The position numbers and the translations under genes are program-made. Shown here one piece after another: positions 10,462 to 64,000 of a stretch of DNA of 64,000 bases (its first letter is position 1; every line of letters starts with the position of its first letter). The notes under the pieces are model-generated. The model saw only the letters and a list, made by a program, of their open reading frames with translations. It searched no databases and was not told where the DNA came from. Source of the stretch: Candidatus Epulonipiscium viviparus (GTDB taxonomy: Bacteria; Bacillota; Clostridia; Lachnospirales; Cellulosilyticaceae). The stretch is taken from the NCBI RefSeq assembly GCF_030708075.1, contig NZ_CP117982.1, positions 1-64,000 on the forward strand. Direction: 5' to 3'.

Positions 10462-10478
10462 GAGCTAGCAGCGACATA

Positions 10479-11102: not shown

Positions 11103-11145
11103 GCCGACATATAGCACGAGGCTGAGCTTGTAGTAGCAATGATAG

Positions 11146-28806: not shown

Positions 28807-29562
28807 TTCGCCAGCTATTGCCACCGAATTGGCTACCCCAGCTATTGCTATCGCATCGACCTCATCAGCTGTTGCCATCGATCGTCGCTACGAGTCGGCT
28901 ACCCCAGCTATTGCCATCGAGTCGGCTTCACCAGCTGTTGCCATCGAGTCGGCCATCCTAGCTATTGCTATCGCATCGACCTCACCAGCTGTTGCCACCG
29001 AATCGGCTTCGCCAGCTGTTGCTATCGCATCGACCTCACCAGCTGTTGCCATCGAATCGGCTTCGCCAGCTGTTGCTATCGCATCGACCTCATCAGCTAT
29101 TGTAATCGAATCGGCTCCGCTAGCTATTGTCATCGCATCGACCTCATCAGCTGTTGCACCGAGTCGGCTACCCCGGCTATTGTCATCGCATCGACCACCT
29201 CAGCTATTACCACCGAGTCGGCTTCGCCAGCTGTTGTCATCAAATCGGCTTCGCCAGCTGTTGTCATCGCATCGACCTCACCAGCTGTTGTCATCGAGTT
29301 GGCTTCGCGAGCTACTGCCATCGAACCGATCATCCCAGCTACTACCATCGCATCGACTCCGCTAGCTATTACCACCGAGTCGGCTTCCCAGCTGTTGTCA
29401 TCAAATCGGCTTCGCCAGCTGTTGCATCGCATCGACCTCATCAGCTGTTGCCACCGAGTCGGCTACCCCAGCTATTGCCATCGCATCGACCTCATCAGCT
29501 GTTGCCATCGAGTCGGCCATCCTAGCTATTGCCACCGAGTCGGCTTCGCCAGCTACTGTAGT
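28806..29562. repeat. 27-bp minisatellite, block 3
   Basis: About 28 units of the 27-bp family with several short deletions (e.g. near 28880, 29150, 29385 and 29420) that shift frame. It ends about 60 bp from the stop codon of gene C. The remaining 29563-29622 is AT-rich with no convincing terminator hairpin for gene C. Confidence 0.88.
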
Positions 29563-40044: not shown

Positions 40045-40046
40045 AT

Positions 40047-40069
40047 AAAAAAGAGGCCCATAAGACCTC
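40047..40069 (-). terminator. Rho-independent terminator of the APC permease
   Basis: On the minus strand TGAGGTC and GGCCTC form a short stem around TTATG, followed by TTTTTT, only 7 nt after the permease stop codon. The 9-bp array starts immediately beyond. Confidence 0.7.
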
Positions 40070-44137: not shown

Positions 44138-45667
44138 TTATAGAAATGCTTTGATATCTTCTTTTGTAATGCATTTGAACGCGAATAAAAATGTGATGTA
44201 GAACAACCCTAGCAATGCGATCGCTATTACTGTAGCTACCTTCGCTCCCACCATGCCGCTTAGTAAGCTGTTATATATATATCGAATGGCAATCGAGCCG
44301 ATGCTTATCGCTATTGCTGGTTTCATTATCCAACTGAGAACGTTTATTGGTAGGCTGATAGAGTCTAGCGCATGGTAGAGGTGATAGCATGTGGCGATTC
44401 CGGCTTGGGCTAGTAGCGCTAGTGTGAATCCTACTAATCCAGATTTTGGTACCCCGACTATTATTAACACGATACATGCTACTGACCCTAGTATGTTTCC
44501 TTGGAATGTTGTTTTTTGTAGCCCAAGCCCGTTTAATACGCCGTTTAGTATCCCTTGTAAATAGAAAAATGGACATATCAGCGCTAGCAGTTTGAGGAGG
44601 TGACCCACTTCGCTCATATTATAGACTAGCATCGCTATTTCGTCTCCTAATGTAAAAAATAGTCCCCCCGCTCCTATTCCGATGATTGCAGATAGTTGTA
44701 CTGACGAGGCCACCGTGCGTTGTAATTCGGCGTTGTTGGATCTCGCTTTCGCGTCGGAGATCGACGGGATGAGTGCCACCGATAGCGACCCCGTTAGCAT
44801 TGACGGAAATAATAAAAGTGGCATCGCCATTCCAGAGTACATTCCAAATACGCTTAATGCATCGCTCGAGCTTAGTCCAAATTTTTCGAGTTGCATGGGG
44901 ATTAGGATATTTTCTACCGATTGCAATGCGGAAGTTAAAAATCGATTCGCTGTGATTGGTAATGACAGGTAGAAGATCGTGTTGATGGCACTATTATATG
45001 TAATTATAGACGGTTTGGTACATTTGATTTTGTTTCGAGCCCTAAAAAACATAAATATGGCAAATCCACAAGAGGCAAATTCGCCACCGCAGAGTCCGAG
45101 CATCGCCGCCGCACAGGCATATTCCAAGCCATATGGAACCATCATTCCAGCAACGAGATAAATAATAATCATTCTAGCAACTTGCTCTATTACCTGAGCT
45201 ATTGCAGGAACGCTCATCTCTTGACGACCCTGAAAATAACCGCGGATGCAGCACGAGGTTGCCATAAACGGTAGACAAGTTCCGAGTAATTGAATAGACA
45301 AAGACGTATCTGCTGCATGAACAAAGTATATTGCAATGGGCTCGTGAAAAATAAATAAGAATAGAGAAATTGGTATGCAAATAACCAGTGATAGCACGAT
45401 CGCGCTTTTCATAATTTTAATAGCATCGTCATGGAATCCCCGAGCATTGTATTCGGCAACTTTTTTGGAAACGACTAGCGATACTCCCGCACTGGAGACA
45501 GCCCAGGCAAGCATATAGATCGGAAAGATCAGTTGGTATAACCCCATTCCTTCGGCACCCATAGTGTGAGATAAAAAGATTCGAAATATAAAACCTAAAA
45601 TTCTAGTTATAAAACTGGCACCAGTAAGAATCATAGTTCCTATTAGTAGTGTTTTTTTACTCATCAT
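44138..45667 (-). CDS. spoVB: SpoVB-like polysaccharide/lipid II flippase (MOP superfamily)
   Basis: 509 residues, about 14 transmembrane helices, of the Polysacc_synt/MVF (MOP exporter) group. The N-terminus, TLLIGTMILTGASFITRILG followed by FIFRIFLSHTMGAEGMGLYQ, is the classic SpoVB/YtgP opening. It is thought to flip lipid-linked cell-wall or polysaccharide precursors, and in sporulating Bacillota SpoVB is needed for spore cortex synthesis. Paralogues (YtgP/MurJ-like, YabM) are similar, so the exact orthology is not proven. The start is ATGATG with AAAGGAG about 8 nt upstream; either ATG is possible. It is monocistronic with its own terminator, and its upstream region carries a possible independent promoter and a separate promoter-terminator unit. 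Confidence 0.88.
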   Translation of the reverse strand: MMSKKTLLIGTMILTGASFITRILGFIFRIFLSHTMGAEGMGLYQLIFPIYMLAWAVSSAGVSLVVSKKVAEYNARGFHDDAIKIMKSAIVLSLVICIPISLFLFIFHEPIAIYFVHAADTSLSIQLLGTCLPFMATSCCIRGYFQGRQEMSVPAIAQVIEQVARMIIIYLVAGMMVPYGLEYACAAAMLGLCGGEFASCGFAIFMFFRARNKIKCTKPSIITYNSAINTIFYLSLPITANRFLTSALQSVENILIPMQLEKFGLSSSDALSVFGMYSGMAMPLLLFPSMLTGSLSVALIPSISDAKARSNNAELQRTVASSVQLSAIIGIGAGGLFFTLGDEIAMLVYNMSEVGHLLKLLALICPFFYLQGILNGVLNGLGLQKTTFQGNILGSVACIVLIIVGVPKSGLVGFTLALLAQAGIATCYHLYHALDSISLPINVLSWIMKPAIAISIGSIAIRYIYNSLLSGMVGAKVATVIAIALLGLFYITFLFAFKCITKEDIKAFL

Positions 45668-46260: not shown

Positions 46261-49200
46261 ATGAACAAATTACAACGAAAGCTTGCCCTACTCATGGCAA
46301 CTACATCGTTTACTTTAAATATTCCAGCATATTCTATGGAGTTTGATAACTTTTTAGATGATAGCTTGGGTATATTTGAAGAAATGATAGAACAAGAAGA
46401 ATTGTTGGATGAAATATTTTATCCATATGGAGATGCAGACGTTTTTGATGAAAGTTTTGACAGTAGTTTCGACGATAGTTTCGGCGATAGTTTTGACGAT
46501 GTCTTTATAGATGAAACTATGAATAGTTACGAAGATTTCTTTGAACAAGAAGAGAAAGAAATAGAAGAAAATATTGAAGACTTTGAATTCGATGAAGAAT
46601 CAACAGAAGAAAACGGTGGCATTGCGACAATGGTGCCAGACAGTTTTAAAGTTTCGGAGGATTCCCCCGATGAGTTTGCTATTAATTCGTTAACAGAAAT
46701 ATATGTAGACGGTCAACGGGTTGATGTAAGCGCGACTTACCCATATACAGCAGTTAGCACGAAAAAGACTATATATGCAGGAGAAGAATACATACTTCCA
46801 ACAGTATCGCTTGATCCAGACGCATCGTTGCCTTTGTTTTCAAGAATTACTGAAAATGGAAAAGATATACAGGAAGAAGAGGGTGTATTAGCAATAAGCT
46901 CGAGCCGTGATGCCTTTACAAGGCTTAGAGCCGCTGAAGAGGAAATTACATATACGGTATCATACTATGCAAATGAAGGCGATTCTCAAGCAGTATACGA
47001 AGTGAATGTTATAACTAGTCCAAGTCTTGGGGTTCTAATAACAGATGGAAAATTCAAGGGTCAAATGATTACAACAGATACAACTCTGGATACTACATTG
47101 GGTGCGGGTGATATAAAAAGCAGCCACTTTATGATTACAGCTACAGAAGTGACGAACCCTGTTCCAGAGGTTAAGAAAGTTGGTGACTCAAATTGGAGTG
47201 GCACAATTGATAATATAGAAGATGCGGTGGGGCAATATACAATCACATATAAATATATAGATCCTGCGAATACAGAGACATTAGTGATCACAGTAAATGT
47301 TACTTCACTAGAAAAGGGCGAACTGATTATTAATCTGAGTGACACTAATCCTTCTTCAATCGCTCTTAAGAATATCGATCAATATAAGTGGCCATATCCA
47401 AGTTTTGATTATGGTGATAATGCTTTGAATCATGATAGTCCAGGGATTACTTATGAAGTGACAGTAGAGAAAAAAGGCGCTTTGATGATAACCACTTTAC
47501 CGTCAGGACCTGCTCCAGGTAATAGTGCTGCTGCCATAGATGCTATAAAAGCTGGCGGTGCCGGGGATTACACATTCACCTATACCGCATCATACACAGA
47601 TCCAGATACAACTGAAGTTGTCGACGCAAAACCGGTTACTCGCGATCTTAAGGTAACAGCAGATGGTGAAAAACCTGTGTTGGATAAAAATTCTATTTCT
47701 GCTGACTATACATCGAATATAGGAGACACGTTTCCTATTCCTCAGATTATCGCAACCGATGTTGATGGGGATGAGCTTGTAATTAAATATACAATTGAAT
47801 CTGCAGAAGTAGCTGGCTTTGAATCACCAGGAGAGTTAGATTTAAAAACCGATAGCACGTTCTCTTTTCTGCTACCCGGAAAATATACTATCACTTATGT
47901 AGCACATGAAACTAGAGAAGGCGGAATGACTAGTGATCCAGTTGTGATCAACTTGACAGTGACAGCGATAGGCGCACCAACTCTGGATGTGATCAAATAT
48001 CTCGAAGAAGTATCATACATGAGTGAAGCAGAATATGATATCTCTAGTACCGCACTATCAATTTTAGTAGATTCGAAACCAATTGCAAGCGATGCTGAAG
48101 GAATAGTAATTTCCTATACCAATGCTGCGGGAGAAGATATTGAGAAGATCGATACTACGACACCTGGTGAATACATGTTGGTAGTTAATTATACGAATGA
48201 CAAAAACATTCCAGCGGCGCCGGTGAAAAAACCTGTTACTGTATCAGAAAATCAGCCACCAACGTTTGACGAGTATTCAGAGACTCCAAAATCCCCGTTC
48301 GCAGGAATCGCATATACTGTTCCAGCGCTAACAGCTGTGGACCCAGAAATGGTGGGTCACTCTCAGGCAGCCACATATCCTGTGGAAATCAAATATACGG
48401 TTGTAGAAGGAGGCGCTGCGCCAGACTTTACTAACGCAAAAGCTTTGACGGACCCATACACGTTTGCAGAAGCTGGAACGTATAAAATCGCATATCAAGC
48501 CACAGACTCGACTACACTTACGGCTTCCTCAACTAAGGAAATTTCTATAGAAGTTATCGAAAATGTTATGCCTAAAATTACCATTTCTCATGGCGCAGTA
48601 AGCTATAATGGCGACTTCAACCTCGATCAAACTTTTGGAGATACGGCAGACTCTCTAAACAGCTTGACTGCATCCGCAAAGGACGGAGAGGTTAATATTG
48701 ATGCGTCAAAAATAACCTTGACGATTACGCAAACTATTAATGACGTCGGAGAAGCTGTGAATGAGGACATAGCTGATTTTGATGCGCTCATGAAAAAAGT
48801 AGGAACTTATACCGCAACTTGGTCGGTCGCAGATGTGGAAGACCCTAGCAAAAGCGCAACGCTAACAGCGACGATTAAAGTGATTGATGACAAGAAACCA
48901 GAAATTACTTATGACGGAGAGCTAAATCAAGTGATTGAATTTGGCGGGTCATTTGATCTAAGCGCGCTTACTGTTACTGCGACTGATAATTATGATGGGG
49001 ACCTAACACCTACTCGAACGGTGACAATGGGTGACCCACCAGTGGAAGTGCCAAGTGAGACTACTACTCTTAATCAGCCAGGGACGTATACTATTACTTA
49101 TACTGCAGTAGACAAGTCGAAAAATGAAGCGACGCTGGAAATTAATGTATTGATAAAAGAGGACCCTGAGGGTAATGCACCTAAATTTTCAATAATTCTT

Positions 49201-52200
49201 AATGAAGGAGCAGAGAGCGAAAAAACTTTTACTGCCGATGGGCAAATCAACATGATCGCCGGAGAAGCTGCACCTAAATTGAAGGGCACATATACCACCA
49301 AAAATAATACAGTACCACAAGACGTTACTGCTAAAATAACCGATTCTACCGATGCCGAAGTAACCGATCCTGACACAGCGTTGAAAAATCCTGGCACTTA
49401 TAAATATACGTATGAAGTACAATACGAGACAAGCGAGGAGCCACCTCAGACCAAAACTTCTTCTGTGGTGATAACCGTCGTGGTTGCGGAAAACGAGATG
49501 CCTATAGTTAGTGCAACATACAAGGGAGCAATACTCCAGACTCCAATTGAAATAAATATGGGAGATGCTGCGCCAGAAATTACTCTTAGCGCAACAGACG
49601 ATGGAAAAGATGTAGATTTAACAGTGAACGCACCTACTATTTCTATAACAAAAGATGGAGCAGACTTTACAGGAGGAATCGACACTATTCCTAACGCGGC
49701 GGGTGAGTACATTATCACTTATTCTGTTGCAGATAGTATAGACAGTACAAAAAGCGGTACGTTACTTGTGACAGTAAAAGTTAATGGTGCACCAGTGATA
49801 CACTATGATGGGGCAGCAGCAGGCGAAACGGTAGACGAATCCATTGCTCAAAACGGCGAATTAACAAAGTCGATCACAGCAGTCGACGCAGAAAATGATC
49901 CTATAACTTGGTCATTTGCTATCGAGGGCGAAGGCACATATACAACTCAAGCAGATCTGAACACTAAAATTAAGACACTTGCAGCTGGGGTTTATAAAAT
50001 TGTTGTAACCGCAACAGACAATGCAGGTCTTGCAGATAAATTTACGATCAACCTCACTATTGCCACGAATGTGGCACCAGAAATTTTTTATAATGGAATA
50101 TCGACTGATGCAACCGAAACTATCGAAGTGGGCGGAACGTTAAAGGATATTACTACTAGTGAAGATGTTGCAAAGCTGACTTTCAAAATCGGCGAAGAGG
50201 CAGCAGTTGATTATGATAAATCAGTATTTGATAACGCAATCAAGGCGTTGCCTGTTGGTACGCATACAATCGTGATCGTAGCGACTGATGCGACTGATTC
50301 AACTTTAACCGATACTTTAACGATTACTTTAACTGTAGCTGCTGCGAATGTGGCACCAGTAATTTCTTATGATGGAGCAGATGCTGGAGATACAAAAGCG
50401 CTTTCGATTACAGCGGGCGGAACTTTAGCGGCGATTACTACTAATGAGACTGATGCAAAGTTGACTTATTCTATAGACGGAGCTCCAGCTGTACCTCATA
50501 CACCAACAGAATTTGATAACGCGATCAAGGCGTTGACTGCTGGTGAGTATACGATCGTGATTACAGCGACTGATGCGCTTGAGCCAACTTTAACCGATAC
50601 TTTAACGATTACTTTAACTGTAACTGCTGCGAATGTGGCACCAGTAATTTCTTATGATGGAGCAGATGCTGGAGATACAAAAACGCTTTCGATTACAGCG
50701 GGCGGAACTTTAGCGGCGATTACTACTAATGAGACTGATGCAAAGCTGACTTTCAAAATCGGCGAAGAGGCAGCTGTACCTCATACACCAACAGAATTTG
50801 ATAACGCGATCAAGGCGTTGTCTGCTGGTGAGTATACAATCGTGATTACAGCGACTGATGCGACTGAGCCAACTTTAACCGATACTTTAACGATTACTTT
50901 AACTGTAGCTGCCGCGAATGTGGCACCAGTAATTTCTTATGATGGAGCAGATGCTGGAGATACAAAAACGCTTTCGATTACAGCGGGCGGAACTTTAGCG
51001 GCGATTACTACTAATGAGACTGATGCAAAGCTGACTTTCAAAATCGGCGAAGAGGCAGCTGTACCTCATACACCAACAGAATTTGATAACGCGATCAAGG
51101 CGTTGACTGCTGGTACGCATACAATCGTGATCGTAGCGACTGATGCGATTGAGCCAACTTTAACCGATACTTTAACGATTACTTTAACTGTAACTGCTGC
51201 GGCTGGTCCAGAATTTAAAGATGGCGGGGTAACAAAAACTGTTCAGGAAACTAAATTGAATGCAACTGTTATAAAGGAAGCCGATTTGGCCGCGTTGCTA
51301 TCTGATTCAACGGCTACAATTTCGAATTTTGCGCAAAAAGCTGCGTATGGATTAAATCCGGTATTTAATAGCGAAAGAGTAAATGTGATAGCAACTACTT
51401 TTACAGCAACAAATGCGGGCGGCATTGCTAGCGATTTAACTTATACTCAGTACACTGTTGTAGATCAGGAAGCGCCATCGTTTGGAATATTTAATTCATC
51501 GTCTAGAGATGCGATAGTTCATAGCCCTAAGGGTCGTACATTCTTCCCATTTGCTGTAACCGATAAAAAAGATGGAGTGATGATAGATCAAACTAGTAGA
51601 ACTTTAATAGACCCTACTGGAAATACTACAGGAGCATATACAGGACCAATACTTTCGACAGAGGCCAAGGCGAATGCATATGGCATTCACAAATACGTAT
51701 ATGAAGTAACAGATAGCGATACCAATTCTACAACCGCGACATTTTATGGTGTTATACATCCAAATAAAACTCAATATGAAGCAGGTCCGTCGATAACTGT
51801 AGACACTCTTGCACCTGAATATAAGACCAACAATATAGATCTGGAAGTTCCGAAAAAAACGATAGAGCAATACGCACCTTATGTACCTGCTGTAGAAATC
51901 GCAGATGGAAGCACGTTGGAGATTACGATACTGAAATCTGATCCTATTACCGCTGGCTGGGAAGTGACTGTAGTAGAAGACAAAGTCACCACTGTAGATG
52001 CGGTGAAAGCAATAGCAGAAACGGCTGGGGAATATGAAGTTGTATATATGGCAAAAAGTGGTAACGACGCAGGGGTATATGCTCAACAGATAACAGTAAC
52101 TCCGGGCGAGAATACTGCGCCAGTTTTGACCGTAACAAATGGAGAAAGTAATTATACTTCAAATACAGTAACAACTGTTATGCTAAACGAGCCGGCACCA

Positions 52201-55200
52201 ACTCTTAGCGCAACGGCGACGGATAACGGAATCGATGTTACTGTGGCAGACCCTGTTGTAAAAAAAGGAGAAACCGTTTTACCTGGTGGGCTGGCTGATA
52301 TCAATACGGCAGAAGTTGGAGAATATACTGTGACCTATGTTGTTGCGGACGGATTTGATTCTAGCCTCGATAAAACTATTGTAGTAACGATTAAAGTGAT
52401 AGAATCGTTTGCGGGAGTTGACTTTATACGAGATGGCAATGCCGCAAATCAAGATGCCGGGATCGCATTATCTAAGGGCGACACATATACTGCACCAGAA
52501 GTGAAGGCTGTAGTTGACGGTGCAGCAGGAGAGGTATTAACTCCGGTAATAGTTCGATTGACTGGAAAAGGTAATCAGACAGAGGTGGATTCAAGTAAAC
52601 ATGGATCATACTCGCTGACGTATACACACCCAGGAGACGCTTCAAAAACTCTCGAGATTATAGTGGTAATCATGCCAGATGCAACTAATGAGAAGCCACA
52701 CTTTGAGGCAAATGAAAAAGCCTGGGATACGATAGGGTTCTCGGACAAAGCTACCAGTGTTTCACCAGGAATAACTGCCTTAGATGCAAAAGACGGAGAT
52801 TTGTTCACGTTTAAGCCAGCAGAGGGAACAGGAGTATATATGACTGTATCGAAAGCTGGGGAGGAAATTGTTGCTCGCCGACATATCTACAAGGGAGCTA
52901 GTGGTCTTGCAGTTACGTTTAATAAAGGACCTGGTGCGTATGAGATAAATTATGAACTGCTAGATTCTGATAGCAATGCGGCAAGTTTGAATTATACGTT
53001 TGTGGCATCGCCGATAGCTAAAGATAAAGATACCGTCGTGATTCCTGGAACTCCGATATTTACTGTAGATGGTAGAGCGATTTCGACATGGCCACTAAAA
53101 GACACCACTGTACCGAGAGTTGATTTGGCGCAACATCAGCCGTATGCACAGACTATTACAATAACAGAAGGAGCAGACCCGGCGGCAGTAGTTGGTAGAG
53201 TATTTAAGCTGAATGGCGCTAATAATGTGGATAACGTATCGCCAACCGATATCGATTATAAAGCGTTAAATGTTGAAGAGCCTGGAAGGTATTTCGTAAT
53301 TCTCACCGCAGAGTCCGCTGGAGGACAGGGTGGCGTATACGCAGAACTGGTGACAGTAACGGCAAATGAAAAGCCTGTTATTACACCGCCAACCGAGACA
53401 GAGCTTACTACAACTGTAGGAGCAGTAATCACCTTACCAAATGTAAACGCGGAAGATCCTGAGGATGGCCCTCTAACAGCTACTTCTACGATTTACGATG
53501 CCGATAATGCGATAGTTGCCGACGTTGCAAAGATGGTGGAAAAAGCTGGAATATACACCGTAAAATATATTGCAACTGACAGTGCGGGAGGTGTATCTGA
53601 CCCAGTTGAAGTTACTGTTACAGTAACAGATCCTGCAAACGAAGCGCCGGTATTGGCTTTGAAAAATCCTGAAGATGCCAATGTAACTGCCACTGTAGGT
53701 GCAGTAGACTTTGCGTTACCAGAATTGAATGCAACAGACAAAGAGGACGATGCGGCAAGCAAACCGATTTCTGTAACTCATACAATCAAAGACTCCACGG
53801 ATGCAACTATAGAAGATGTTGCGACAATGCTATCGAAAGCTGGAGTTTATAAAGTAACATTTGTCGCGACCGACTCCGAGGGAGTTAAATCGAATGAAGT
53901 TGTAGTTACTGTAACTGTGGCAGAAGCGGTAGATACCGAAAAGCCTGTGATTACGTTTACATTTAGCGGATACAAGTATGGCAAAGAAGAAACACCAGGA
54001 GCTCCTCAGACATTTAGTAGCGCTAATCCGTATCCTGACGGGGAAACTATGTTTACGATGGCTGAGAACATGACTCAAGGAGATATTATTACTGTTGTAA
54101 CAAACGTCACAGACAATATCTCAGAAGATGTTCAACTAGAATGGAAGGCGTACGAGAATAAAATTGCTGAACCTCCGATGGCTCTTGAAAATTTGGAAGA
54201 TATCACCAAAAAGAAAGGCAATTACTTTGTAACTTTCACAGCAACTGATGAGGCCGGAAATACTGCAGAAATGATTGTTAAGCTAACTGTGAAAGAATAC
54301 ATTCCGGTGGAGTTTGTCTATAACGGGCAATCGTATAAAGAAGTTAAAAATGATATAGAGCACAAATTGAAGGTAGGAGAGTCATACGCACCGACGATCG
54401 AAATTATTGAGGATTCACTAAACAACTTTACGTATTCTGTAGCTAAGGTAGGTGGCGGTGAGATTTTGGCACCTACTACCGAAAAGAGCGACATTGCAAA
54501 GGCGATTGCTGATATCAACACTGCGTTGGGAACTCCAGTATTGGGAGATAAGTTTACTGTGAAATTTGTAACAAAAGCGTACAATGTGCCAGACCAAACT
54601 TTTGATATAGCATTGGAATATGTGGCGGCTGATGTGGATACAACTGTACCGCAAATTACTGTAAATGATGGAACTACTGCTCATACCAAAGACTTTGAGG
54701 TAGAGCTGGAAGTAGGAGAGACTATTCCAACGTTTACGGCAACAGCGATGGATGAAACAACTGATGTTACCGCTGATATCAAAACTGCTGTGACGAAGAA
54801 CGGCGAAGCATTTACAGAAGGAGTGGAAGGAATTACCAGTGCCGAAGAAGCGACGTATGTGATCACTTATACTGTAAGCGATGGAACTAATACGGGCACG
54901 CTAAAAGCGACGATTACTATTATACCTAAGAATGTGGCACCAGAAATTTCTTATGGCGGAGTACCAACTGATGAAACCACTGTAGTGATCGCAGAGGGCG
55001 GAACTATAATGGCGATTACTACTAATGAGAATAATGCAAAGCTGACTTATTCTATAGACGGAGCTCCAGCTTTACCTCACACACAAACAGAATTTGATAA
55101 CGCAATCAAGGCGTTGCCTGTTGGTAAGTATACGATCGTGATTACAGCGACTGATGCGCTTGATTCAACTTTAACCAATACTTTAACGATTAATTTGATT

Positions 55201-58200
55201 GTAACTGCCGCGAATGTGGCACCAGAAATTTCTTATGATGGAGTATCGACTGATGCAATAACCGAAACTATCGAAGCGGGCGGAACGTTAAAGGCGATTA
55301 CTACTAATGAGACTGATGCAAAGTTGACTTATTCTATAGACGGAGCTCCAGCTTTACCTCATACACCAGCAGAATTTGATAACGCAATCAAGAAGTTGAC
55401 TGCTGGTGAGCATACAATCGTGATTACAGCGACTGATGCGACTGAGCCAACTTTAACCGATACTTTAACGATTACTTTAACTGTAACCGCCGCGAATGTG
55501 GCACCAGAAATTTCTTATGATGGAGTATCGACTGATGCAATAACCGAAACTATCGAAGTGGGCGGAACGTTAAAGGCGATTACTACTAATGAGACTGATG
55601 CAAAGCTGACTTATTCTATAGACGGAGCTCCAGCTGTACCTCATACACCAGCAGAATTTGATAACGCAATCAAGGCGTTGCCTATTGGTCCGCATACGGT
55701 CGTGATTACAGCAGCTGATGCGACTGATTCAACTTTAACCGATACTTTAACGATTACTTTAACTGTAACCGCCGCGAACACTGCGCCAAAAATCACTCCG
55801 TTAGGTCAAGATAAATATACAGTACTTCTCAATGACGAATTATTTGTATTTCCAACTCCTATCGTAACTGATAAAGAAGACGATGCTGCAAATAAAGAGG
55901 TTGCCGTGACTCACGCAATTACAGATTCTGGCAATAATCCGATAGCTAGTCTTGCTGAGATGATTGCAGTGGCGGGCGTATATACTGTCGCTTATACAGC
56001 AACTGACTCTGCTGGTGCGACATCGGCTCCATATACAATTACTGTTGAGGTAGTTGCGGAAATGGCTGGTGCGATATTCTTTAATCCGGGAGAGCCTATG
56101 TATGAAATAGAGTCTGGTTCGGAATTTACTATACCAGATGTCACTGCGGTTGATGGGTATTTACAAAAGCCGCTTGAGGTGAAAAGAACAATCTTAAACA
56201 AGACCAATTCTATTATACGCGAAGATGCGCTCACCGATATTTCCGGAACATATAGAATAATTTATAGTGCGACATCTGCGTCTGGTGTACCGGGAACTTA
56301 TACGATTACGGTGAACGTTACTGATGCGACAGCACCGGTGATTTGGTATAACGGAACTGAACAAGCAAATCAGGCGTTGATCGAATTGACCGGGGAGAAG
56401 GCTTTGACCAAGGGATCGGTATATGCACCAGAAATTATCGTAACTGATGCGAATACTCCTGTACCTGCGATTAGATTTGATATATATCCAGGATTAATTG
56501 CTCCGGGCACGCCATCCGGAAGTTTGCCACCAAAATTTAAGGTAGATGGAAAGGAAATCGATATTTCGGAAATTCCAAATCAAGTAGCGGGCAATTACAC
56601 TGTTATTTACTCCGCTAATGACGCTATCAATTGGAGATCTATTTATATTCAGATTGAAGTTAAAGATGGGACTCCAGAAGCGGTAGAAAACGCGCCGATC
56701 ATTACGATTAAAGATAAGAACGGCATTGTTAGAAGCGAGGACGAAGATGCTGGAGGTACGACGCCTTATAACCACGAAGTCGCGATGAATACCACTGTAG
56801 AAGAATTCCAGAAATTGGTACAATACTCTGCTACCAAATCAGATGCAGCAACACCGCTGGAGGTTATAGTTTCCAATATTACGCATGATAACAATACGCA
56901 ATTTTCAACTATAGAGCAATTCTTAAATGTGCCAGGGTATTACACCGTTACTCTACAAGCTAAAGATGGTGACAAGGCGACGGTAAGACGCATTAGTATT
57001 AGAATTGTGGATACCAGTGTTCCGGTAATTAGTTATAAAGGAGAAGCAATACCAAATAAAGGGGCGCTTGATATTACGTTAAACCCAACAGAGAGATTTA
57101 ATGCCGCCGATATTTCAATAACAGACAACTCGCTAAATGCTGGTGGATCGGGAGTTCATATTACGCCTCCGGGTGGTACCGAATCGGCATTGATTAAGTT
57201 TAACGACAAAACTGCGGGTACAGGATTTGTAGATTCGCTAAATAAAGTTGGAGAGACCGTAGGAAAGTATAAGCTACGATTTGTGGCAAAAGATTGGCAG
57301 CCAGGTAATGCTCTGGGAGTTGACAAAAATGCAGAAGTGACCATCAATGTAGACGCGTTGGCAGTGGCACCAGGCGCGGATACCGAAAAACCAGTGATCG
57401 CGGCTCCGGCTAATGCTAAAATTGAGGTGAATAAGGGCGATGAGTTTGAGATGCCTCCAGTGCCAGCTGTAACTGATAATAGCACAGACAGATTAACGGT
57501 TATAACTACGATTTATGATGTGACAGGATTGGAAACTGCGGAGATTGCCGAGTTGATGGCAATTGTTTTGACGGACGAAAATAAAATTGCGCTTGAAGAG
57601 GAAGGCGTGATTGTTGATGCGGTCGATACATCTAAACTTAACGAGTACAAGATTCGTTATGATGCGGTAGACCGAGCAGGAAATAGAGCAGACCAGCAAT
57701 CAGTGGCTGTTACAGTTGTAGAGAGCGAACCAGATACCGTATTTCCGAGTATCGACTTTACTGCAGGCGAATTTAGTCTGAACGCTCAAAGTGCGACTCC
57801 TACTACTGGCGCGTTTGAAATGACGGCTATGACTGCACCAGAGGTGTCGATTACTGTTACTGATAAGGCTACTATTGTGCCTACTGTTACGCTTGCTGGT
57901 GTAGCAATTACGGGGGCAACGGCTGCCGATATCGCGACGGCTCTAAAAGCTGAGCTTAATAAGTTGGCAGCGGCGGACACTGCGTATGTAATTGATATTA
58001 AAGCTTTTGATGGAACCAACGAAACGCAGATGATTATTAATGTAACTGTGAAAGCGGCAGTGGTGGTGGGTGCTCCAACATTTGCTAATGGCGAACTCGA
58101 GAAAGAGGATATCCATTTGAACTCTATCGCTCCAGACGCTCCGTCGATAGAGGCAGCAGATCTGGCGGCCACTCTAAAGAGCATGCTTGATACTCAATTC

Positions 58201-61200
58201 GCAGAGGACCCGGACGTAACTGTTACTCCTGGAAAAGTTACGTGGGGATATAGCAATAAATTTTTAAATAACAAAGTTAATGTAGTACGCATTCCGTTTA
58301 CGGCAACATTAGATGGAAAAGTAAATGATCTAGTTTATACACGCACATTGGCACTAGATCAGGAGGAGCCTGCGTTCTATATATTCAACACGACTGCAAA
58401 GGATAATATTTTGCCGATAGTAAAAGGTCAGGAATGGTATCCGTTTGCAGCAGCAGATAAGAAAGATGGAAGCTTAATTCCTGCTACCACAAGAACGCTA
58501 ACCGGCCCTGATGGCGAAGTTATTGGCACTTACACAGGCTATAAAGATTCTGCAACTGAAGCAAAAGTTGATCAGTTTGGTTTGTATCAGCATAGACATG
58601 AGATAACAGATAGCGATGGGCATACAGAAGATGCGACGTTCTTTGGCATTGCGGTGCCGAAGAACGATGATCCAAATAAATTGGAGATTACTGTGGATGG
58701 CAAAACTCCGACATATACTACTCCAGATAAGCTAACTGTGGAGACGAGGACGCTTGCGCAATATACGCCATTCATGCCTGAGGTGGTATATCCGTTTGTG
58801 AATAGTTCGGTTCAGACTATCGTGCTATCTACAACACCAGTAGGTCCAAATAGAGATGTAGAAGTAGTGACATTGAATGGTTCGATCGACGATGTTAAAA
58901 CTGTTGCAAGGACCGCAGGAATCTTTACTATCGCATATATGGCTATTGACAATACTGACCCTACAAAAGCGGGGACATATATCGAGGAAATAACAGTAAC
59001 TGCGGGTGAGAATACTGCGCCAGTGTTAACTGTAACCGATGAAACTAATTCTTATACCGAAGATTTTGAGTTGACATTTAAAATGTTAGACATCTTACCG
59101 CTTATTCAAGCAACGGCAACAGACGAAGGAGTCGATATTAATGCATCTGGTCCTACAGTTAAGAAAGTGGGCGACAATGCTTGGACCGGAACTGTCGAGG
59201 ATATAACAAATGCGGCAGGAACTTATACTTTAACCTTTGTTGCGGAAGATACTTTCGATTCTACATTAAATAAGACTATTGTAGGGACCATAAATGTAGT
59301 TACTGATGGACCAAAATTCGCAGATGGCTCGACTTTAAAGGAAGAAATTACCACCGACTTAGCTGCAGCGGCTCCAACTGAAGACTATATCAAAACTTTA
59401 CTGGACGATACGAGTGCACAGATCTCTGATTGGAAACAATCGGCTTCACACGGAAGTATTCCTGTATCCAAAGCTAGAGTAAACGTAATAACAACTACTT
59501 TTACGGCAACAAACGCTAAGGGCGCTCAGGCTTTGACGCATATTCACACTACTGCCCATGATCAAGCAGAGCCGTCCTTCGGAATCAACAACGTGGCAAC
59601 AAAAGATATTATTACAATCAGTACCAAGGGTCGAGCATTTTTCCCATTTGCGGCAACCGATAGAGAAGATGGAAGCTTGATCAGCAAAACGCAACGTACG
59701 CTTATTAACCCTGCAGGCGAAACTCAGGCAACATTTGTGGGAGCAACTGGCGCCGATGATGACACAGGCAAGGCAGCGACATTTGGATTGCACCAGTATG
59801 TATATGAAGTTTCAGATAAAGATAGCAATGCGATTAAATCTACAGTGTATGTATTTACGACTCCTAACAAAGCACAACAAGCAGAAAATCCAAGCATTAC
59901 AGTAGATGGCGCCGAAGCTGCATATACAAATACTGAAGGCACCAAGATGGAGTTTAAAGCTGTAGAAACAACGAAAGGTAAAGCGTATACGCCGAATGTT
60001 GTTATTCCACCAGATGCTACATTAAAAATAGCAATATTAAAATCTGCAGGAGAAAAAGAGACACTCGATGTAACAATGATAAACGGCGATGCGACAATCG
60101 ACGATGTGAAGGCGCTTGCAAATGAAGAGGGCATATATACGATTGGATATATGGCAGTGGATAACGCCAATCCAGAAAAAGCGGGAATGTTCTTACAGAC
60201 GCTAACTGTGGCTCCAGCGGCGAACGCACCAGTGATTACTGTACCAGATATATTAGAATACGATGTCGCTCAGGGCGGAAAATTTGATATACCTGAATTG
60301 AAAGCTACCGATGTGGAAGACGGCGAAGTTACTGCAACATACAAAGTGAGCGTCAACGGAACTGAGACTGCTTTTGATACAGCTGCAGAAGTGGGGACTG
60401 TGTTTACGTTTACTTATACTGCAACAGACTCGGAGAACAATGTGTCCGAACCGGTTGTTATTACGGTAACCATCACAGAGGCAGTTGCCGAAGGAATTAC
60501 ATTTACGATTCCACCAGATGCGAAGCTTGAGTTTGACGTTGGCGAGGAGTTTGTGATTCCGGCTATTGTCGCAACAGATGAAAACGGAGTGAAATTAGAT
60601 ACGACGTATTCCATTATTAGAAGACCGGGCGGATTCCTTAATACTGATAACGCGTGGACAGAAGCCACCGTGACTAGCTTGAGTGGTACGTATTCTGTAA
60701 TATTCTTAGCAAGGGACGCATATGGAAATGAAGCGACAAAGGATGTTCAAATTAAAGTAGTGGATGAGATCCCGCCGGTTATATATTACAACGGCGTAGA
60801 TGCGGGAGATACGCAAACGCTAAATCTTAAGAAAAATGAAGCTTTGATTGTTAATGTAACTATGGTCGAGAACGCTGCAATGGCAAAACTTACCAGAATT
60901 GTTACGGATGAATCAAATACTATTATTAAGGATAACAAATTCCCTGACATTACAAAAACACCGGGAACGTATAAAGCTGTTTATACTGCAACAGACGGAG
61001 TTGCAACAGACAAATTGACGATGACAATTGTAGTTTCAGAAGAAGCGGTAGATGCGACAGGGCTTCCGGTGATTACTGTAACAGATGAGCGAACTGGAAA
61101 TTCGGTAGTAGCCGGAAAGCAAGTATTTAGGTTAATGACCGATACCCCAGAAACTCTGGATATTACTCACACAACAGATATCGAGGCAGATCTTCAAGTG

Positions 61201-64000
61201 GATTATACCGCGAGCATTGCCAACTTATCTCAAACTGTACCGCTAGAGGATATATTTAAAACTCCGGCTTATTACACAACAACTGTTAAAGCAACCAACA
61301 AGAATGACCCAACCAAATCATCTATGTTTATGTATACTACCGTTATTCAAGATAATCAAAAACCAGTATTTTATTTTGAAGACGTATTGCAAGATGATTT
61401 AGCCGAGGCTACTATCGAGCATGTAGTGGAGACGACCGGAACTCTCGCACCAAACGTCGTACCGTATGATAATTCATTGCGAGCAGGAAAGGCGCCAGTG
61501 AAGATTGTGAGCACTATCGCTGGAGTTGAGACCCAAGTACTTCCGCATAAAGATGCCAGTGGAAATGATTTAGTGCTTGCTGCAACACAACAGCCATATC
61601 AAGTAGATGACACAGGAGCTTCGACAAACAAACTTTATACCGATACTCAAATATGGGATATGGTTAAAGCGTTGGGTACGCAAGAAGGTACGCATAAGTT
61701 ATCGTATTACGCATCTCAATGGCAAGGTTATTTACATGCAACTAGAGGCGACTATGCCGAGTTTTTCCTAACTGTAAATGTTGTCGCAACTCCAGATGAG
61801 ATAGCTCCGGTTATAGCTGATCCAGACCCGCTTAAATATGAAGTGGCTCAAGGGGGGGCATTCACTATGCCGCCAGTTCCTAGCGCAACTGATGATAGAG
61901 ACGACGTAGTTACTGTTAACGTGGCGGTTATGGACCCAGATAACAAAATTAGTACTACTGTTGATACAAACAAAGTAGGCACGCATCGAATTATTTACTC
62001 CGCAAAAGATATTGCTGGAAATAAGGCCGAACCGAAAGAAGTAGAAGTAGTGGTTAAGGCTGTAGCGGATGACGAAAAGCCTGTGATTACGTTTACATTT
62101 AGCGGATACAAGTATGGCAAAGAGGAAACACCAGGAGAGCCTCAGACATTTAGTAGCGCTAATCCGTATCCTGACGGGGAAACTATGTTTACGATGTTTG
62201 AGAGCATGACTCAAGGAGATATTATTACGGTTACAACAAACGTCACAGACAATATCTCAAAAGATGTTGAACTGACCTGGGAAGTACGCGAGAATAAAAT
62301 TACTGAACCTGTGATTACTCTTGAAAAATTGGAAGATATCACCAAAAAGAAAGGCAATTACTTTGTAACTTTCACCGCAACTGATGATGCCGGAAATACT
62401 GCAGAAATGATTGTTAAGCTAACTGTGAAAGAATATGTTCCTGTAAAATTCGTATATAATGGAAAGACGTATAACGAGGTTACGAATGAAATAGAGCACA
62501 AGTTGAATGTAGGAATGCCATACGCACCGACGATCGAAATTATTGAAGATTCACTAAACCAATTTACGTATTCTGCCACTAAGGTAGGCGGCGGTGAGAT
62601 TTTGACACCTGCTACTGGAAAGATGACTGACCTTCCAAAGGCGATCACTGACATCAACACTGCGTTGGGAGCTCCAGCAGTTGGAGATAAGTTTACTGTG
62701 AAATTTGTAACAAAGGCATACAATGTGCCAGACCAAACTTTTAATATAGCATTGGAATATGTGGCGGCTGGTGTGGATACAACTGTACCTCAAATAGCAG
62801 TAAACGATGGAACCACTGAGCATACTGACGACTTTACTGTGAAAGTGAAGAAAGACGGCGCAATTCCAACTCTTACGGCAACAGCTATGGACGGCACAGA
62901 TAATGTTACTGCGGATATCAAAACTACTGTGACGAAGAACGGCGAAGCATTTACAGCTGGAGTAGCAGGAATCACTAGTGCGGAAGAAGCAACTTATGTA
63001 ATAACTTATACTGTAAGCGATGGAACCAACAACGATACGTTGAACGTAACAATACATGTGGATGCCACGGGGCCGGTGATTACGTTTAAAGCAGAAGGAC
63101 TGAAGCAAGGGGCTGGCAATGCGGCGACGTCGTTTGAATTTATATCAAATAAATTGGGAGAGAAGCCGAGTGCGGTATTTAATTTGGCAGACACATTCCC
63201 GTATACCATTACCGCAAAAGATGAAGTGGACGGAGCTGTAACTTATAAGTATGAAGTACACGATGAGAGAGGCGTTACCAAATTTGAGGATATGATGGCC
63301 GTTATGAATAAGGCAGGAAACTACCGAGTTACGATAACTTCAACAGACGAAGTTGGCAACGAAACTTCTATGGCAGTGATGTTGTATTCGCAAGAATTTG
63401 AGAAGGCAGAAGTTTCCTACGGTGGAGCGGCGATGGCAGCGGGAGATACTAAGAGCGTAACGATCGCGCCTGCAGATGTGGGTGCGTACAATCCAACTTT
63501 ATCTGTATCGGATGGAGCTTTGAGATGGGCAAAATATTCGATAACTAAAAATGGTACAGAGATAACTCCGGTAACGACGATGCCACAAGCAACTGTTGGG
63601 GATGAAATAGTCGCAAATACAACCGACGCAGTAGCGGCAATCAAAGCTGCAGTAGCGGGAGCAAAAAATGGGGATCAAATTGTAGTGAATTTAGAAGTTG
63701 TGGACTGGTTCTTATATACTGATAAAGCACCTGCAAAATACACGATCAACATTTCGATAGGTACAGAAGTAGATCTAACTAAACCAACGATAGCTATTAA
63801 CGAGAATACTGCCGACTACATGATCTACAAGTATAAAGGTCAGGGATTAACTCAGGGGGTTGTTGCCACCGACAATGTGGATGGCGATTTAACAGCAGAT
63901 AAATTTAAGGGAGAAGACGCCGGAATCTATAGAAATGTTAAGATTAATGGCGAAGCACTAGCAGAAGAGAAAGTATCGAAAGCAGATTTGGCGGCTAAGT
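46261..64000 (+). CDS. Giant secreted Ig-like repeat protein D (at least 5913 aa, open at right edge)
   Basis: From the ATG at 46261 the frame is uninterrupted to the window edge; the sampled lines across the whole region read in frame with no stop. The N-terminus MNKLQRKLALLMATTS is a signal peptide with cleavage near residue 25. A very acidic linker follows (about 26-125, repeats of FDDSF/FDESF and EEIEENIEDF). The remainder is a long string of beta-sandwich modules with the closing motif G-x-Y-[TK]-[IV]-x-Y-x-A-x-D (GTYTITYTAVDKS, GKYTITYVAHE), as in DUF5011/HYR/Big_3 domains of Gram-positive adhesins. Near-identical 94-95-residue tandem copies lie at 50341-51195 and 54925-55770. No enzyme motif seen. 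The C-terminal anchor is outside the window. Likely a giant adhesin or surface fibre (inference). Its own sigma-70 promoter and AAAAAGGAG support expression. Confidence 0.93.
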   Translation, partial: MNKLQRKLALLMATTSFTLNIPAYSMEFDNFLDDSLGIFEEMIEQEELLDEIFYPYGDADVFDESFDSSFDDSFGDSFDDVFIDETMNSYEDFFEQEEKEIEENIEDFEFDEESTEENGGIATMVPDSFKVSEDSPDEFAINSLTEIYVDGQRVDVSATYPYTAVSTKKTIYAGEEYILPTVSLDPDASLPLFSRITENGKDIQEEEGVLAISSSRDAFTRLRAAEEEITYTVSYYANEGDSQAVYEVNVITSPSLGVLITDGKFKGQMITTDTTLDTTLGAGDIKSSHFMITATEVTNPVPEVKKVGDSNWSGTIDNIEDAVGQYTITYKYIDPANTETLVITVNVTSLEKGELIINLSDTNPSSIALKNIDQYKWPYPSFDYGDNALNHDSPGITYEVTVEKKGALMITTLPSGPAPGNSAAAIDAIKAGGAGDYTFTYTASYTDPDTTEVVDAKPVTRDLKVTADGEKPVLDKNSISADYTSNIGDTFPIPQIIATDVDGDELVIKYTIESAEVAGFESPGELDLKTDSTFSFLLPGKYTITYVAHETREGGMTSDPVVINLTVTAIGAPTLDVIKYLEEVSYMSEAEYDISSTALSILVDSKPIASDAEGIVISYTNAAGEDIEKIDTTTPGEYMLVVNYTNDKNIPAAPVKKPVTVSENQPPTFDEYSETPKSPFAGIAYTVPALTAVDPEMVGHSQAATYPVEIKYTVVEGGAAPDFTNAKALTDPYTFAEAGTYKIAYQATDSTTLTASSTKEISIEVIENVMPKITISHGAVSYNGDFNLDQTFGDTADSLNSLTASAKDGEVNIDASKITLTITQTINDVGEAVNEDIADFDALMKKVGTYTATWSVADVEDPSKSATLTATIKVIDDKKPEITYDGELNQVIEFGGSFDLSALTVTATDNYDGDLTPTRTVTMGDPPVEVPSETTTLNQPGTYTITYTAVDKSKNEATLEINVLIKEDPEGNAPKFSIILNEGAESEKTFTADGQINMIAGEAAPKLKGTYTTKNNTVPQDVTAKITDSTDAEVTDPDTALKNPGTYKYTYEVQYETSEEPPQTKTSSVVITVVVAENEMPIVSATYKGAILQTPIEINMGDAAPEITLSATDDGKDVDLTVNAPTISITKDGADFTGGIDTIPNAAGEYIITYSVADSIDSTKSGTLLVTVKVNGAPVIHYDGAAAGETVDESIAQNGELTKSITAVDAENDPITWSFAIEGEGTYTTQADLNTKIKTLAAGVYKIVVTATDNAGLADKFTINLTIATNVAPEIFYNGISTDATETIEVGGTLKDITTSEDVAKLTFKIGEEAAVDYDKSVFDNAIKALPVGTHTIVIVATDATDSTLTDTLTITLTVAAANVAPVISYDGADAGDTKALSITAGGTLAAITTNETDAKLTYSIDGAPAVPHTPTEFDNAIKALTAGEYTIVITATDALEPTLTDTLTITLTVTAANVAPVISYDGADAGDTKTLSITAGGTLAAITTNETDAKLTFKIGEEAAVPHTPTEFDNAIKALSAGEYTIVITATDATEPTLTDTLTITLTVAAANVAPVISYDGADAGDTKTLSITAGGTLAAITTNETDAKLTFKIGEEAAVPHTPTEFDNAIKALTAGTHTIVIVATDAIEPTLTDTLTITLTVTAAAGPEFKDGGVTKTVQETKLNATVIKEADLAALLSDSTATISNFAQKAAYGLNPVFNSERVNVIATTFTATNAGGIASDLTYTQYTVVDQEAPSFGIFNSSSRDAIVHSPKGRTFFPFAVTDKKDGVMIDQTSRTLIDPTGNTTGAYTGPILSTEAKANAYGIHKYVYEVTDSDTNSTTATFYGVIHPNKTQYEAGPSITVDTLAPEYKTNNIDLEVPKKTIEQYAPYVPAVEIADGSTLEITILKSDPITAGWEVTVVEDKVTTVDAVKAIAETAGEYEVVYMAKSGNDAGVYAQQITVTPGENTAPVLTVTNGESNYTSNTVTTVMLNEPAPTLSATATDNGIDVTVADPVVKKGETVLPGGLADINTAEVGEYTVTYVVADGFDSSLDKTIVVTIKVIESFAGVDFIRDGNAANQDAGIALSKGDTYTAPEVKAVVDGAAGEVLTPVIVRLTGKGNQTEVDSSKHGSYSLTYTHPGDASKTLEIIVVIMPDATNEKPHFEANEKAWDTIGFSDKATSVSPGITALDAKDGDLFTFKPAEGTGVYMTVSKAGEEIVARRHIYKGASGLAVTFNKGPGAYEINYELLDSDSNAASLNYTFVASPIAKDKDTVVIPGTPIFTVDGRAISTWPLKDTTVPRVDLAQHQPYAQTITITEGADPAAVVGRVFKLNGANNVDNVSPTDIDYKALNVEEPGRYFVILTAESAGGQGGVYAELVTVTANEKPVITPPTETELTTTVGAVITLPNVNAEDPEDGPLTATSTIYDADNAIVADVAKMVEKAGIYTVKYIATDSAGGVSDPVEVTVTVTDPANEAPVLALKNPEDANVTATVGAVDFALPELNATDKEDDAASKPISVTHTIKDSTDATIEDVATMLSKAGVYKVTFVATDSEGVKSNEVVVTVTVAEAVDTEKPVITFTFSGYKYGKEETPGAPQTFSSANPYPDGETMFTMAENMTQGDIITVVTNVTDNISEDVQLEWKAYENKIAEPPMALENLEDITKKKGNYFVTFTATDEAGNTAEMIVKLTVKEYIPVEFVYNGQSYKEVKNDIEHKLKVGESYAPTIEIIEDSLNNFTYSVAKVGGGEILAPTTEKSDIAKAIADINTALGTPVLGDKFTVKFVTKAYNVPDQTFDIALEYVAADVDTTVPQITVNDGTTAHTKDFEVELEVGETIPTFTATAMDETTDVTADIKTAVTKNGEAFTEGVEGITSAEEATYVITYTVSDGTNTGTLKATITIIPKNVAPEISYGGVPTDETTVVIAEGGTIMAITTNENNAKLTYSIDGAPALPHTQTEFDNAIKALPVGKYTIVITATDALDSTLTNTLTINLIVTAANVAPEISYDGVSTDAITETIEAGGTLKAITTNETDAKLTYSIDGAPALPHTPAEFDNAIKKLTAGEHTIVITATDATEPTLTDTLTITLTVTAANVAPEISYDGVSTDAITETIEVGGTLKAITTNETDAKLTYSIDGAPAVPHTPAEFDNAIKALPIGPHTVVITAADATDSTLTDTLTITLTVTAANTAPKITPLGQDKYTVLLNDELFVFPTPIVTDKEDDAANKEVAVTHAITDSGNNPIASLAEMIAVAGVYTVAYTATDSAGATSAPYTITVEVVAEMAGAIFFNPGEPMYEIESGSEFTIPDVTAVDGYLQKPLEVKRTILNKTNSIIREDALTDISGTYRIIYSATSASGVPGTYTITVNVTDATAPVIWYNGTEQANQALIELTGEKALTKGSVYAPEIIVTDANTPVPAIRFDIYPGLIAPGTPSGSLPPKFKVDGKEIDISEIPNQVAGNYTVIYSANDAINWRSIYIQIEVKDGTPEAVENAPIITIKDKNGIVRSEDEDAGGTTPYNHEVAMNTTVEEFQKLVQYSATKSDAATPLEVIVSNITHDNNTQFSTIEQFLNVPGYYTVTLQAKDGDKATVRRISIRIVDTSVPVISYKGEAIPNKGALDITLNPTERFNAADISITDNSLNAGGSGVHITPPGGTESALIKFNDKTAGTGFVDSLNKVGETVGKYKLRFVAKDWQPGNALGVDKNAEVTINVDALAVAPGADTEKPVIAAPANAKIEVNKGDEFEMPPVPAVTDNSTDRLTVITTIYDVTGLETAEIAELMAIVLTDENKIALEEEGVIVDAVDTSKLNEYKIRYDAVDRAGNRADQQSVAVTVVESEPDTVFPSIDFTAGEFSLNAQSATPTTGAFEMTAMTAPEVSITVTDKATIVPTVTLAGVAITGATAADIATALKAELNKLAAADTAYVIDIKAFDGTNETQMIINVTVKAAVVVGAPTFANGELEKEDIHLNSIAPDAPSIEAADLAATLKSMLDTQFAEDPDVTVTPGKVTWGYSNKFLNNKVNVVRIPFTATLDGKVNDLVYTRTLALDQEEPAFYIFNTTAKDNILPIVKGQEWYPFAAADKKDGSLIPATTRTLTGPDGEVIGTYTGYKDSATEAKVDQFGLYQHRHEITDSDGHTEDATFFGIAVPKNDDPNKLEITVDGKTPTYTTPDKLTVETRTLAQYTPFMPEVVYPFVNSSVQTIVLSTTPVGPNRDVEVVTLNGSIDDVKTVARTAGIFTIAYMAIDNTDPTKAGTYIEEITVTAGENTAPVLTVTDETNSYTEDFELTFKMLDILPLIQATATDEGVDINASGPTVKKVGDNAWTGTVEDITNAAGTYTLTFVAEDTFDSTLNKTIVGTINVVTDGPKFADGSTLKEEITTDLAAAAPTEDYIKTLLDDTSAQISDWKQSASHGSIPVSKARVNVITTTFTATNAKGAQALTHIHTTAHDQAEPSFGINNVATKDIITISTKGRAFFPFAATDREDGSLISKTQRTLINPAGETQATFVGATGADDDTGKAATFGLHQYVYEVSDKDSNAIKSTVYVFTTPNKAQQAENPSITVDGAEAAYTNTEGTKMEFKAVETTKGKAYTPNVVIPPDATLKIAILKSAGEKETLDVTMINGDATIDDVKALANEEGIYTIGYMAVDNANPEKAGMFLQTLTVAPAANAPVITVPDILEYDVAQGGKFDIPELKATDVEDGEVTATYKVSVNGTETAFDTAAEVGTVFTFTYTATDSENNVSEPVVITVTITEAVAEGITFTIPPDAKLEFDVGEEFVIPAIVATDENGVKLDTTYSIIRRPGGFLNTDNAWTEATVTSLSGTYSVIFLARDAYGNEATKDVQIKVVDEIPPVIYYNGVDAGDTQTLNLKKNEALIVNVTMVENAAMAKLTRIVTDESNTIIKDNKFPDITKTPGTYKAVYTATDGVATDKLTMTIVVSEEAVDATGLPVITVTDERTGNSVVAGKQVFRLMTDTPETLDITHTTDIEADLQVDYTASIANLSQTVPLEDIFKTPAYYTTTVKATNKNDPTKSSMFMYTTVIQDNQKPVFYFEDVLQDDLAEATIEHVVETTGTLAPNVVPYDNSLRAGKAPVKIVSTIAGVETQVLPHKDASGNDLVLAATQQPYQVDDTGASTNKLYTDTQIWDMVKALGTQEGTHKLSYYASQWQGYLHATRGDYAEFFLTVNVVATPDEIAPVIADPDPLKYEVAQGGAFTMPPVPSATDDRDDVVTVNVAVMDPDNKISTTVDTNKVGTHRIIYSAKDIAGNKAEPKEVEVVVKAVADDEKPVITFTFSGYKYGKEETPGEPQTFSSANPYPDGETMFTMFESMTQGDIITVTTNVTDNISKDVELTWEVRENKITEPVITLEKLEDITKKKGNYFVTFTATDDAGNTAEMIVKLTVKEYVPVKFVYNGKTYNEVTNEIEHKLNVGMPYAPTIEIIEDSLNQFTYSATKVGGGEILTPATGKMTDLPKAITDINTALGAPAVGDKFTVKFVTKAYNVPDQTFNIALEYVAAGVDTTVPQIAVNDGTTEHTDDFTVKVKKDGAIPTLTATAMDGTDNVTADIKTTVTKNGEAFTAGVAGITSAEEATYVITYTVSDGTNNDTLNVTIHVDATGPVITFKAEGLKQGAGNAATSFEFISNKLGEKPSAVFNLADTFPYTITAKDEVDGAVTYKYEVHDERGVTKFEDMMAVMNKAGNYRVTITSTDEVGNETSMAVMLYSQEFEKAEVSYGGAAMAAGDTKSVTIAPADVGAYNPTLSVSDGALRWAKYSITKNGTEITPVTTMPQATVGDEIVANTTDAVAAIKAAVAGAKNGDQIVVNLEVVDWFLYTDKAPAKYTINISIGTEVDLTKPTIAINENTADYMIYKYKGQGLTQGVVATDNVDGDLTADKFKGEDAGIYRNVKINGEALAEEKVSKADLAAK
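50341..51195 (+). repeat. Three tandem 285-bp coding repeats within gene D
   Basis: Each copy begins with the codons for AANVAPVISYDGADAGDTK and ends TLTDTLTITLTV. Copies start at 50341, 50626 and 50911, exactly 285 bp (95 codons) apart, and are nearly identical. A diverged copy precedes them from about 50059. Each copy is one Ig-like domain. Confidence 0.9.
51205..52130 (+). repeat. About 0.9-kb module of gene D, copy 1 of 3 (others 58069-59025 and 59305-60235)
   Basis: The three blocks share the protein pattern GPxFxDG ... [AD]L..LL.. ... RVNVI.T.FTATNA ... D...PSFGI.N ... KGR.FFPFA.TD..DG ... RTL..P.G ... YGIH.YVYE.[TS]D.D ... SITVD ... Y.P.V.I ... VKA.A...G.Y...YMA ... V..GENTAPVLTVT. 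Copies 2 and 3 are nearly adjacent; copy 1 is 7 kb upstream. Nucleotide identity is modest, so these are older than the 8136-bp duplication. Confidence 0.75.
53941..54900 (+). repeat. About 1-kb coding duplication in gene D (partner at 62077-63036)
   Basis: The segment starting KPVITFTFSGYKYGKEETPG recurs 8136 bp downstream at 62077 with high nucleotide identity to about 63040, ending around TYVITYTVSDGT. It spans three to four Ig-like domains, so it is a duplication of a multi-domain block. Confidence 0.85.
54925..55770 (+). repeat. Three tandem 282-bp coding repeats within gene D, second cluster
   Basis: Copies of the same domain type as at 50341 but 94 codons long, with NVAPEISYDGVSTDA starting at 54931, 55213 and 55495. 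The 1-codon length difference from the first cluster shows that each cluster was expanded separately from related seeds about 4 kb apart. Confidence 0.88.
62077..63036 (+). repeat. Second copy of the about 1-kb coding duplication in gene D
   Basis: Partner of 53941-54900. Differences are mostly scattered substitutions (for example GAPQT versus GEPQT). The neighbours on both sides of the two copies differ, so the block moved as a unit. Confidence 0.85.

Follow-up and report, generated by a model that had tools for sequence, protein, structure and literature searches.

Gene D of Candidatus Epulonipiscium (Epulopiscium) viviparus, a giant, polyploid symbiont of the fish gut, contains repeats at several scales, the smallest domain-sized ones being nearly identical tandem units of 282/285 bp. 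This locus raises the question of how the gene grew and whether its most similar units are new. The original prediction had read their near-identity as a sign of recent expansion and had suggested that the length of the protein may vary between cells or strains. The DNA analyzed, here called the window, is a stretch of 64,000 nucleotides which corresponds to positions 1-64000 of the source genome, a single contig of 3,282,261 bp. For this species PMC8245194 describes tens of thousands of genome copies and a circular chromosome of ~3.28 Mbp. Gene D runs past the end of the window (64000) to position 66762, and a literature search found no paper on it. The features of the gene are as follows.

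46261-66762, plus strand: gene D, complete frame of 6,833 aa without internal stop (46261-64000 inside the window); N-terminus that looks like a signal peptide, acidic stretch, Ig-like units, LRR-like C-terminus, end IKNWFKS
46453-46500, plus strand: 12-bp array (Ser-Phe-Asp-Asp)
50068-50346, plus strand: cluster 1 unit 1, 93 aa, the most diverged
50347-50631, plus strand: cluster 1 unit 2, 95 aa, with a cluster-1-type head and a cluster-2-type middle
50632-50916, plus strand: cluster 1 unit 3, 95 aa
50917-51201, plus strand: cluster 1 unit 4, 95 aa
51202-52110, plus strand: 0.9-kb module 1, without Pfam family at E 0.01
53905-54894, plus strand: 1-kb block, copy A
54931-55212, plus strand: cluster 2 unit 1, 94 aa
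55213-55494, plus strand: cluster 2 unit 2, 94 aa
55495-55776, plus strand: cluster 2 unit 3, 94 aa
58060-59016, plus strand: 0.9-kb module 2, orthologous to a module of the paralogue D' (65.8% aa)
59296-60225, plus strand: 0.9-kb module 3, orthologous to a D' module (61.2% aa)
62041-63033, plus strand: 1-kb block, copy B, 8136-8139 bp downstream of copy A

The reality of the three repeat levels was examined by a self-comparison of the complete gene, which recovered both arrays and the distant block at the predicted positions. The 285-bp array appeared as a match of 50300-50907 with 50585-51192 (95.4%) and the 282-bp array as a match of 54930-55496 with 55212-55778 (90.3%). The single-domain tandems form two clusters, of four and three units. 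The clusters also matched each other (50430-50662 with 55293-55525, 94.8%). Matches spaced by 8136/8139 bp started from 53937-54410, 54514-54650 and 54788-54887 at 89-94% identity. They belong to the multi-domain block of about 1 kb, whose copies are 85.4% identical over 987 columns of DNA alignment. The real gene held 20 repeated segments, the longest of 608 bp, versus zero segments of at least 60 bp and a longest repeat of 17 bp in 100 codon shuffles. Three 0.9-kb modules are likewise present. Their limits shifted slightly, to 51202, 58060 and 59296, and they are repeats at the protein level, with pairwise identities of 34-43% in amino acids and about 50-54% in DNA. The span of 51205-63036 first given for the whole system proved too narrow, since the 285-bp cluster lies just before 51205 and the gene extends to 66762.

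The three levels arose at different times. Oldest are the 0.9-kb modules: their pairwise dS is 1.7 or more, with synonymous sites near or at saturation. Modules 2 and 3 lie inside a stretch in which D (aa 3207-5200) is collinear with D' (aa 2842-4684), a paralogue of 5,531 aa at 3239406-3256001. Each resembles its own D' counterpart at the identity listed above, versus 34% crosswise, and consequently the two modules parted before D and D' did. For module 1 no collinear counterpart was found in D'. In the metagenome-assembled genome Epulopiscium sp. AS2M-Bin001 a single match of 42% covers both modules 2 and 3. The 1-kb block is next in age, with a dN of 0.125 and a dS of 0.357 between its copies. 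A second genome (NZ_ABEQ01000041.3, Candidatus Epulonipiscium viviparus strain N.t. morphotype B) contains a complete D orthologue, and the stretches surrounding the two block copies are 96.6% and 97.9% identical to their own counterparts there. Each copy is closest to its own counterpart, so the block duplication is older than the strain split, by a factor of about 15 (dS ratio ~0.357/0.023). The 282/285-bp units are the youngest. They were found in 2 of 24 genomes of the family (E 0.001), both of the same species. The reading that D grew in nested fashion, by duplicating domains in frame at three scales, is therefore upheld, and the scales can be put in time order.

The comparison of strains covers two genomes, both of which were obtained from cell populations according to the papers cited for them (PMC8245194, PMC3416734). 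The D orthologue comprises 6,847 aa versus 6,833 aa and is 94.5% identical over 6,641 aligned positions. The number of units was equal, 4 + 3 in both genomes, two genomes being few. The largest net length difference amounts to 36 bp and is due to three extra units of the 12-bp array at 46453-46500 in the second genome. The remaining differences in length are indels of 1-2 aa, some of which appear as units of 93, 94 or 95 aa. No D' was detected in the second genome, whose draft assembly is listed at 80% completeness. As both strains carry 4 + 3 units, the expansion is most simply older than their split. A recent expansion, in which near-identical units are new and differ in number between strains or cells, would suit the 92.6-96.5% identity of neighbours in D, as PMC8201768 reports length variation for repeats of this kind. 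We nevertheless consider it unlikely, since unit number is the same in both genomes and the 14 aa by which proteins of about 6,840 aa differ do not lie in unit number. Variation of D length between strains thus finds little support in these two genomes, and the step from near-identity to recent expansion does not hold; recombination between copies fits better.

Evidence for such recombination came from the divergence of the units between strains. Outside the clusters D is 97.68% identical (dN 0.021-0.022, dS 0.023-0.024), and divergence position by position would predict about 97.7% for each pair of corresponding units. The observed values were 87.1, 87.0, 88.8, 91.9, 93.3, 88.3 and 97.2%. Six of the seven pairs thus reach only 87-93%, unlike the rest of the gene; the last unit of cluster 2 shows no excess divergence. 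Synonymous changes numbered 40.0 in 503.8 sites of the units versus 97.8 in 4286.8 sites outside (odds ratio 3.7, p 8e-10), and non-synonymous changes were over-represented 5.1 times in the units. Selection alone is ruled out as the cause of the array differences because synonymous divergence is raised as well. Within one genome, cluster-1 neighbours are up to 96.5% (D) and 96.8% (second genome) identical. In D, neighbouring units of 94-95 aa show 92.6-96.5% DNA identity (units 2-4 in cluster 1, units 2-3 in cluster 2). The nearest relative lay in the same genome for three of the seven D units (one tie, three across strains) and for four of seven in the second genome. Cluster 1 shows clear homogenisation, cluster 2 a weak one.

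A divergent array could also have entered by DNA uptake from another lineage instead of arising by exchange within the gene. PMC8245194 reports that recombination outweighs mutation in the diversity of this species and that competence genes are many. We regard import as improbable, given that the excess divergence centres on both arrays and that cluster-1 units resemble their neighbours in the same genome. Single units are also mosaic in composition. Unit 2 of cluster 1 in D joins a cluster-1 head to a cluster-2 middle, and unit 2 of cluster 2 in the second genome bears a cluster-1 head. These two units, from opposite clusters, are each other's best match across the strains (93.3%). In a run test 7 of 21 unit pairs in D passed Bonferroni correction, two of them between clusters, as did 5 of 21 in the second genome, three of them between clusters. 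When all 14 units were pooled none of 91 pairs passed, a threshold that 1,000 permutations could not reach.

The repeats of the second genome may be misassembled, as it is a Sanger draft of population DNA (PMC3416734). In that case repeats would be misjoined in one of the genomes and the mosaics would not represent true molecules. The population origin of both assemblies (for PMC8245194, provided that its genome is the one studied here) and 28 places with N in the second D gene speak for such an artefact. All 28 lie beyond nt 10845 of the gene and none in the arrays, and PMC3416734 describes paired-end sequencing. Moreover, all four cluster-1 units of the second genome have an ADVGDT residue in common that none of the seven D units contains, a pattern that misjoining by itself would not produce. 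We therefore judge an artefact very unlikely.

A further explanation is turnover by unequal crossing-over. Units would be lost and regained in each lineage, and their equal number would be a coincidence or reflect a selected stalk length. This differs from gene conversion solely in mechanism. In the global protein alignment of the strains, cluster 1 indeed shows a loss of 95 aa and a gain of 95 aa split into three pieces, and cluster 2 a pair of 95/94 aa. On the other side, mosaic tracts shorter than a unit and mosaics across the clusters indicate exchange tract by tract, and three D units (the first of cluster 1, the first and third of cluster 2) have their positional counterparts as nearest relatives. 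We hold turnover by unequal crossing-over to be rather doubtful. From the sequence comparison, ongoing recombination between copies appears to account for the near-identity of the units better than a recent expansion does.

Taken together, D is likely to be a giant secreted filamentous protein which arose in three waves of duplication and whose youngest units undergo concerted evolution by recombination. The first in-frame duplication would have given the 0.9-kb modules, the second copied the multi-domain 1-kb block, and the last multiplied the 282/285-bp single-domain units. Homologous recombination would since have carried short tracts from one unit to its neighbour and, less often, from one cluster to the other across 4.6-5.1 kb. 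Both gene conversion and balanced unequal exchange could accomplish this. Such exchange would give each lineage mosaic units of its own while the copy number stays equal. One gene thus displays three separable ages of growth, and the second genome shows that near-identity between domain repeats is no sure sign of recent expansion. With polyploidy of this degree, exchange between repeats opens variation inside single cells to direct testing. Recombination among D units across the tens of thousands of genome copies could even yield many versions of D per cell, which we consider a long shot. If this were true, one giant cell would display shifting surface variants and pass them on via few germline copies.

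Several known systems resemble D in part. The Periscope Proteins (SasG, Rib, Sgo_0707, CdrA), defined in PMC8201768 by near-identical tandem repeats with length variation between strains, are, like D, large surface-type proteins with long tandems of folded domains that closely resemble one another. Unlike these, D has the same number of units in two genomes, lacks a known N-terminal ligand-binding domain and is encoded in a genome without a sortase match. It is also much larger and holds two short arrays amid older, diverged repeats. The giant adhesin of Mobiluncus mulieris (7,651 aa, 51 Ig-like domains; PMC10619420) is likewise one chain of similar size and domain number, but is described with an LPxTG anchor and cross-linked ester/isopeptide domains, whereas D has no sortase partner. 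Leptospira LigA/LigB/LigC are Ig-like surface proteins with mosaicism made by recombination (PMC10534446). In D, which belongs to another phylum and is of another size, the exchange would take place among units of one gene in two separated arrays. Mycoplasma genitalium MgpC (MG192) varies by crossover, possibly gene conversion, between repeats (PMC2169797). Its MgPar donors are described there as partial copies elsewhere in the genome, in contrast to D, where the putative donors are units of the same gene.

With an iterated profile HMM, the Ig-like units numbered at least 48 in D and 38 in D'. The Bacterial surface Ig-like domain PF16403 matched three pieces of D with 71.9, 60.2 and 42.7 bits, versus a curated cut-off of 27. 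Judged from these profiles, most of D is Ig-like. The structure of two tandem units was predicted with a pLDDT of 94.9 and a pTM of 0.70 and consisted mostly of strands with one short helix in each unit. By our reading of the strand pattern the units would be beta-sandwiches. The best PDB matches of this model were cadherin and Ig tandems and Rib domains, so that the tandems of Rib, a Periscope Protein, are among the fold matches of the predicted units. The Z score on a second look was near 8, which is the level of a common fold and denotes general Ig/cadherin likeness. Module 2, for which no Pfam family was found at E 0.01, gave a beta-rich model of moderate confidence (pLDDT 69.9) that was left out of the fold search.

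A sortase/LPXTG anchor was rejected for D, as no sortase family match was present in the whole genome (one genome searched). No SLH domain was among the Pfam matches of D; SLH proteins are present elsewhere in the genome. D may have an anchor of another kind. The Pfam and NCBIfam matches of D included no adhesive domain. Its great length (6,833 aa) and repetitive stalk domains (48 units) agree with the characteristics of fibrillar adhesins defined in PMC9210967. On this sequence evidence we lean towards D being a secreted or surface-held stalk, perhaps an adhesin. It may be displayed on the cell surface or shed from it.

Selection along the gene was assessed from dN/dS between the strains, with codons containing N left out. 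For aa 201-1173 a ratio of 2.34 was obtained. The limits of this segment were set after a sliding window, so its p of 0.0035 becomes about 0.025 after correction for seven segments. The ratio for aa 5201-6833 was 0.25 (p 5e-9), and the N-terminal and C-terminal halves of D differed (p 1.8e-5). The N-terminal part may thus be the exposed, diversifying end of the protein. The giant gene C (29623-38265), for which no Pfam family was found at E 0.01, showed a ratio of 2.01 over 2,111 of 2,880 codons (p 5e-8). Seven ordinary flanking genes gave 0.00-0.49, the gene at 44138-45667 being compared over 235 codons. The high ratios in D and C suggest that the giant proteins form an interface under selection, with the fish host, phage or competitors on the other side. 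The gene at 38832-40061 was left out of these controls owing to its 9-bp repeats and unreliable alignment. Its protein is only 57% identical between the genomes, versus 97-99.6% for other flanking genes.

Other giant proteins and repeats occur around D. Two giant proteins form an inverted pair (3709-11113 and 14728-24479) with 92.2% identity over 5,980 bp (5154-11113 versus 20679-14728). The second genome has both genes and partial extra copies on two other contigs. FKRS is the C-terminal end of a short ORF (10479-11102) and of the giant proteins B and C (11088-11102, 14739-14753, 29623-29637), and D ends in FKS. A C-terminal FK(R)S tail was not enriched genome-wide, with 28 matches versus 39 for a reversed-pattern control. 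Repeats of 9/18, 18/36 and 27/54/81 bp form long arrays, some of them open on both strands, at 1-548, 11412-14016, 25521-28159, 28811-29554 and 38686-40034. Three arrays of an intergenic-looking 171-bp unit with AGCTTAAAGTATTACTTTAAC (24720-25346, 25932-26442, 28168-28807) flank the 27-bp arrays. A further giant frame of 5,811 aa is located at 3262275-3279710, just upstream in contig numbering, and together with D' (3239406-3256001) it makes up a series of giant genes about the ends of the contig.
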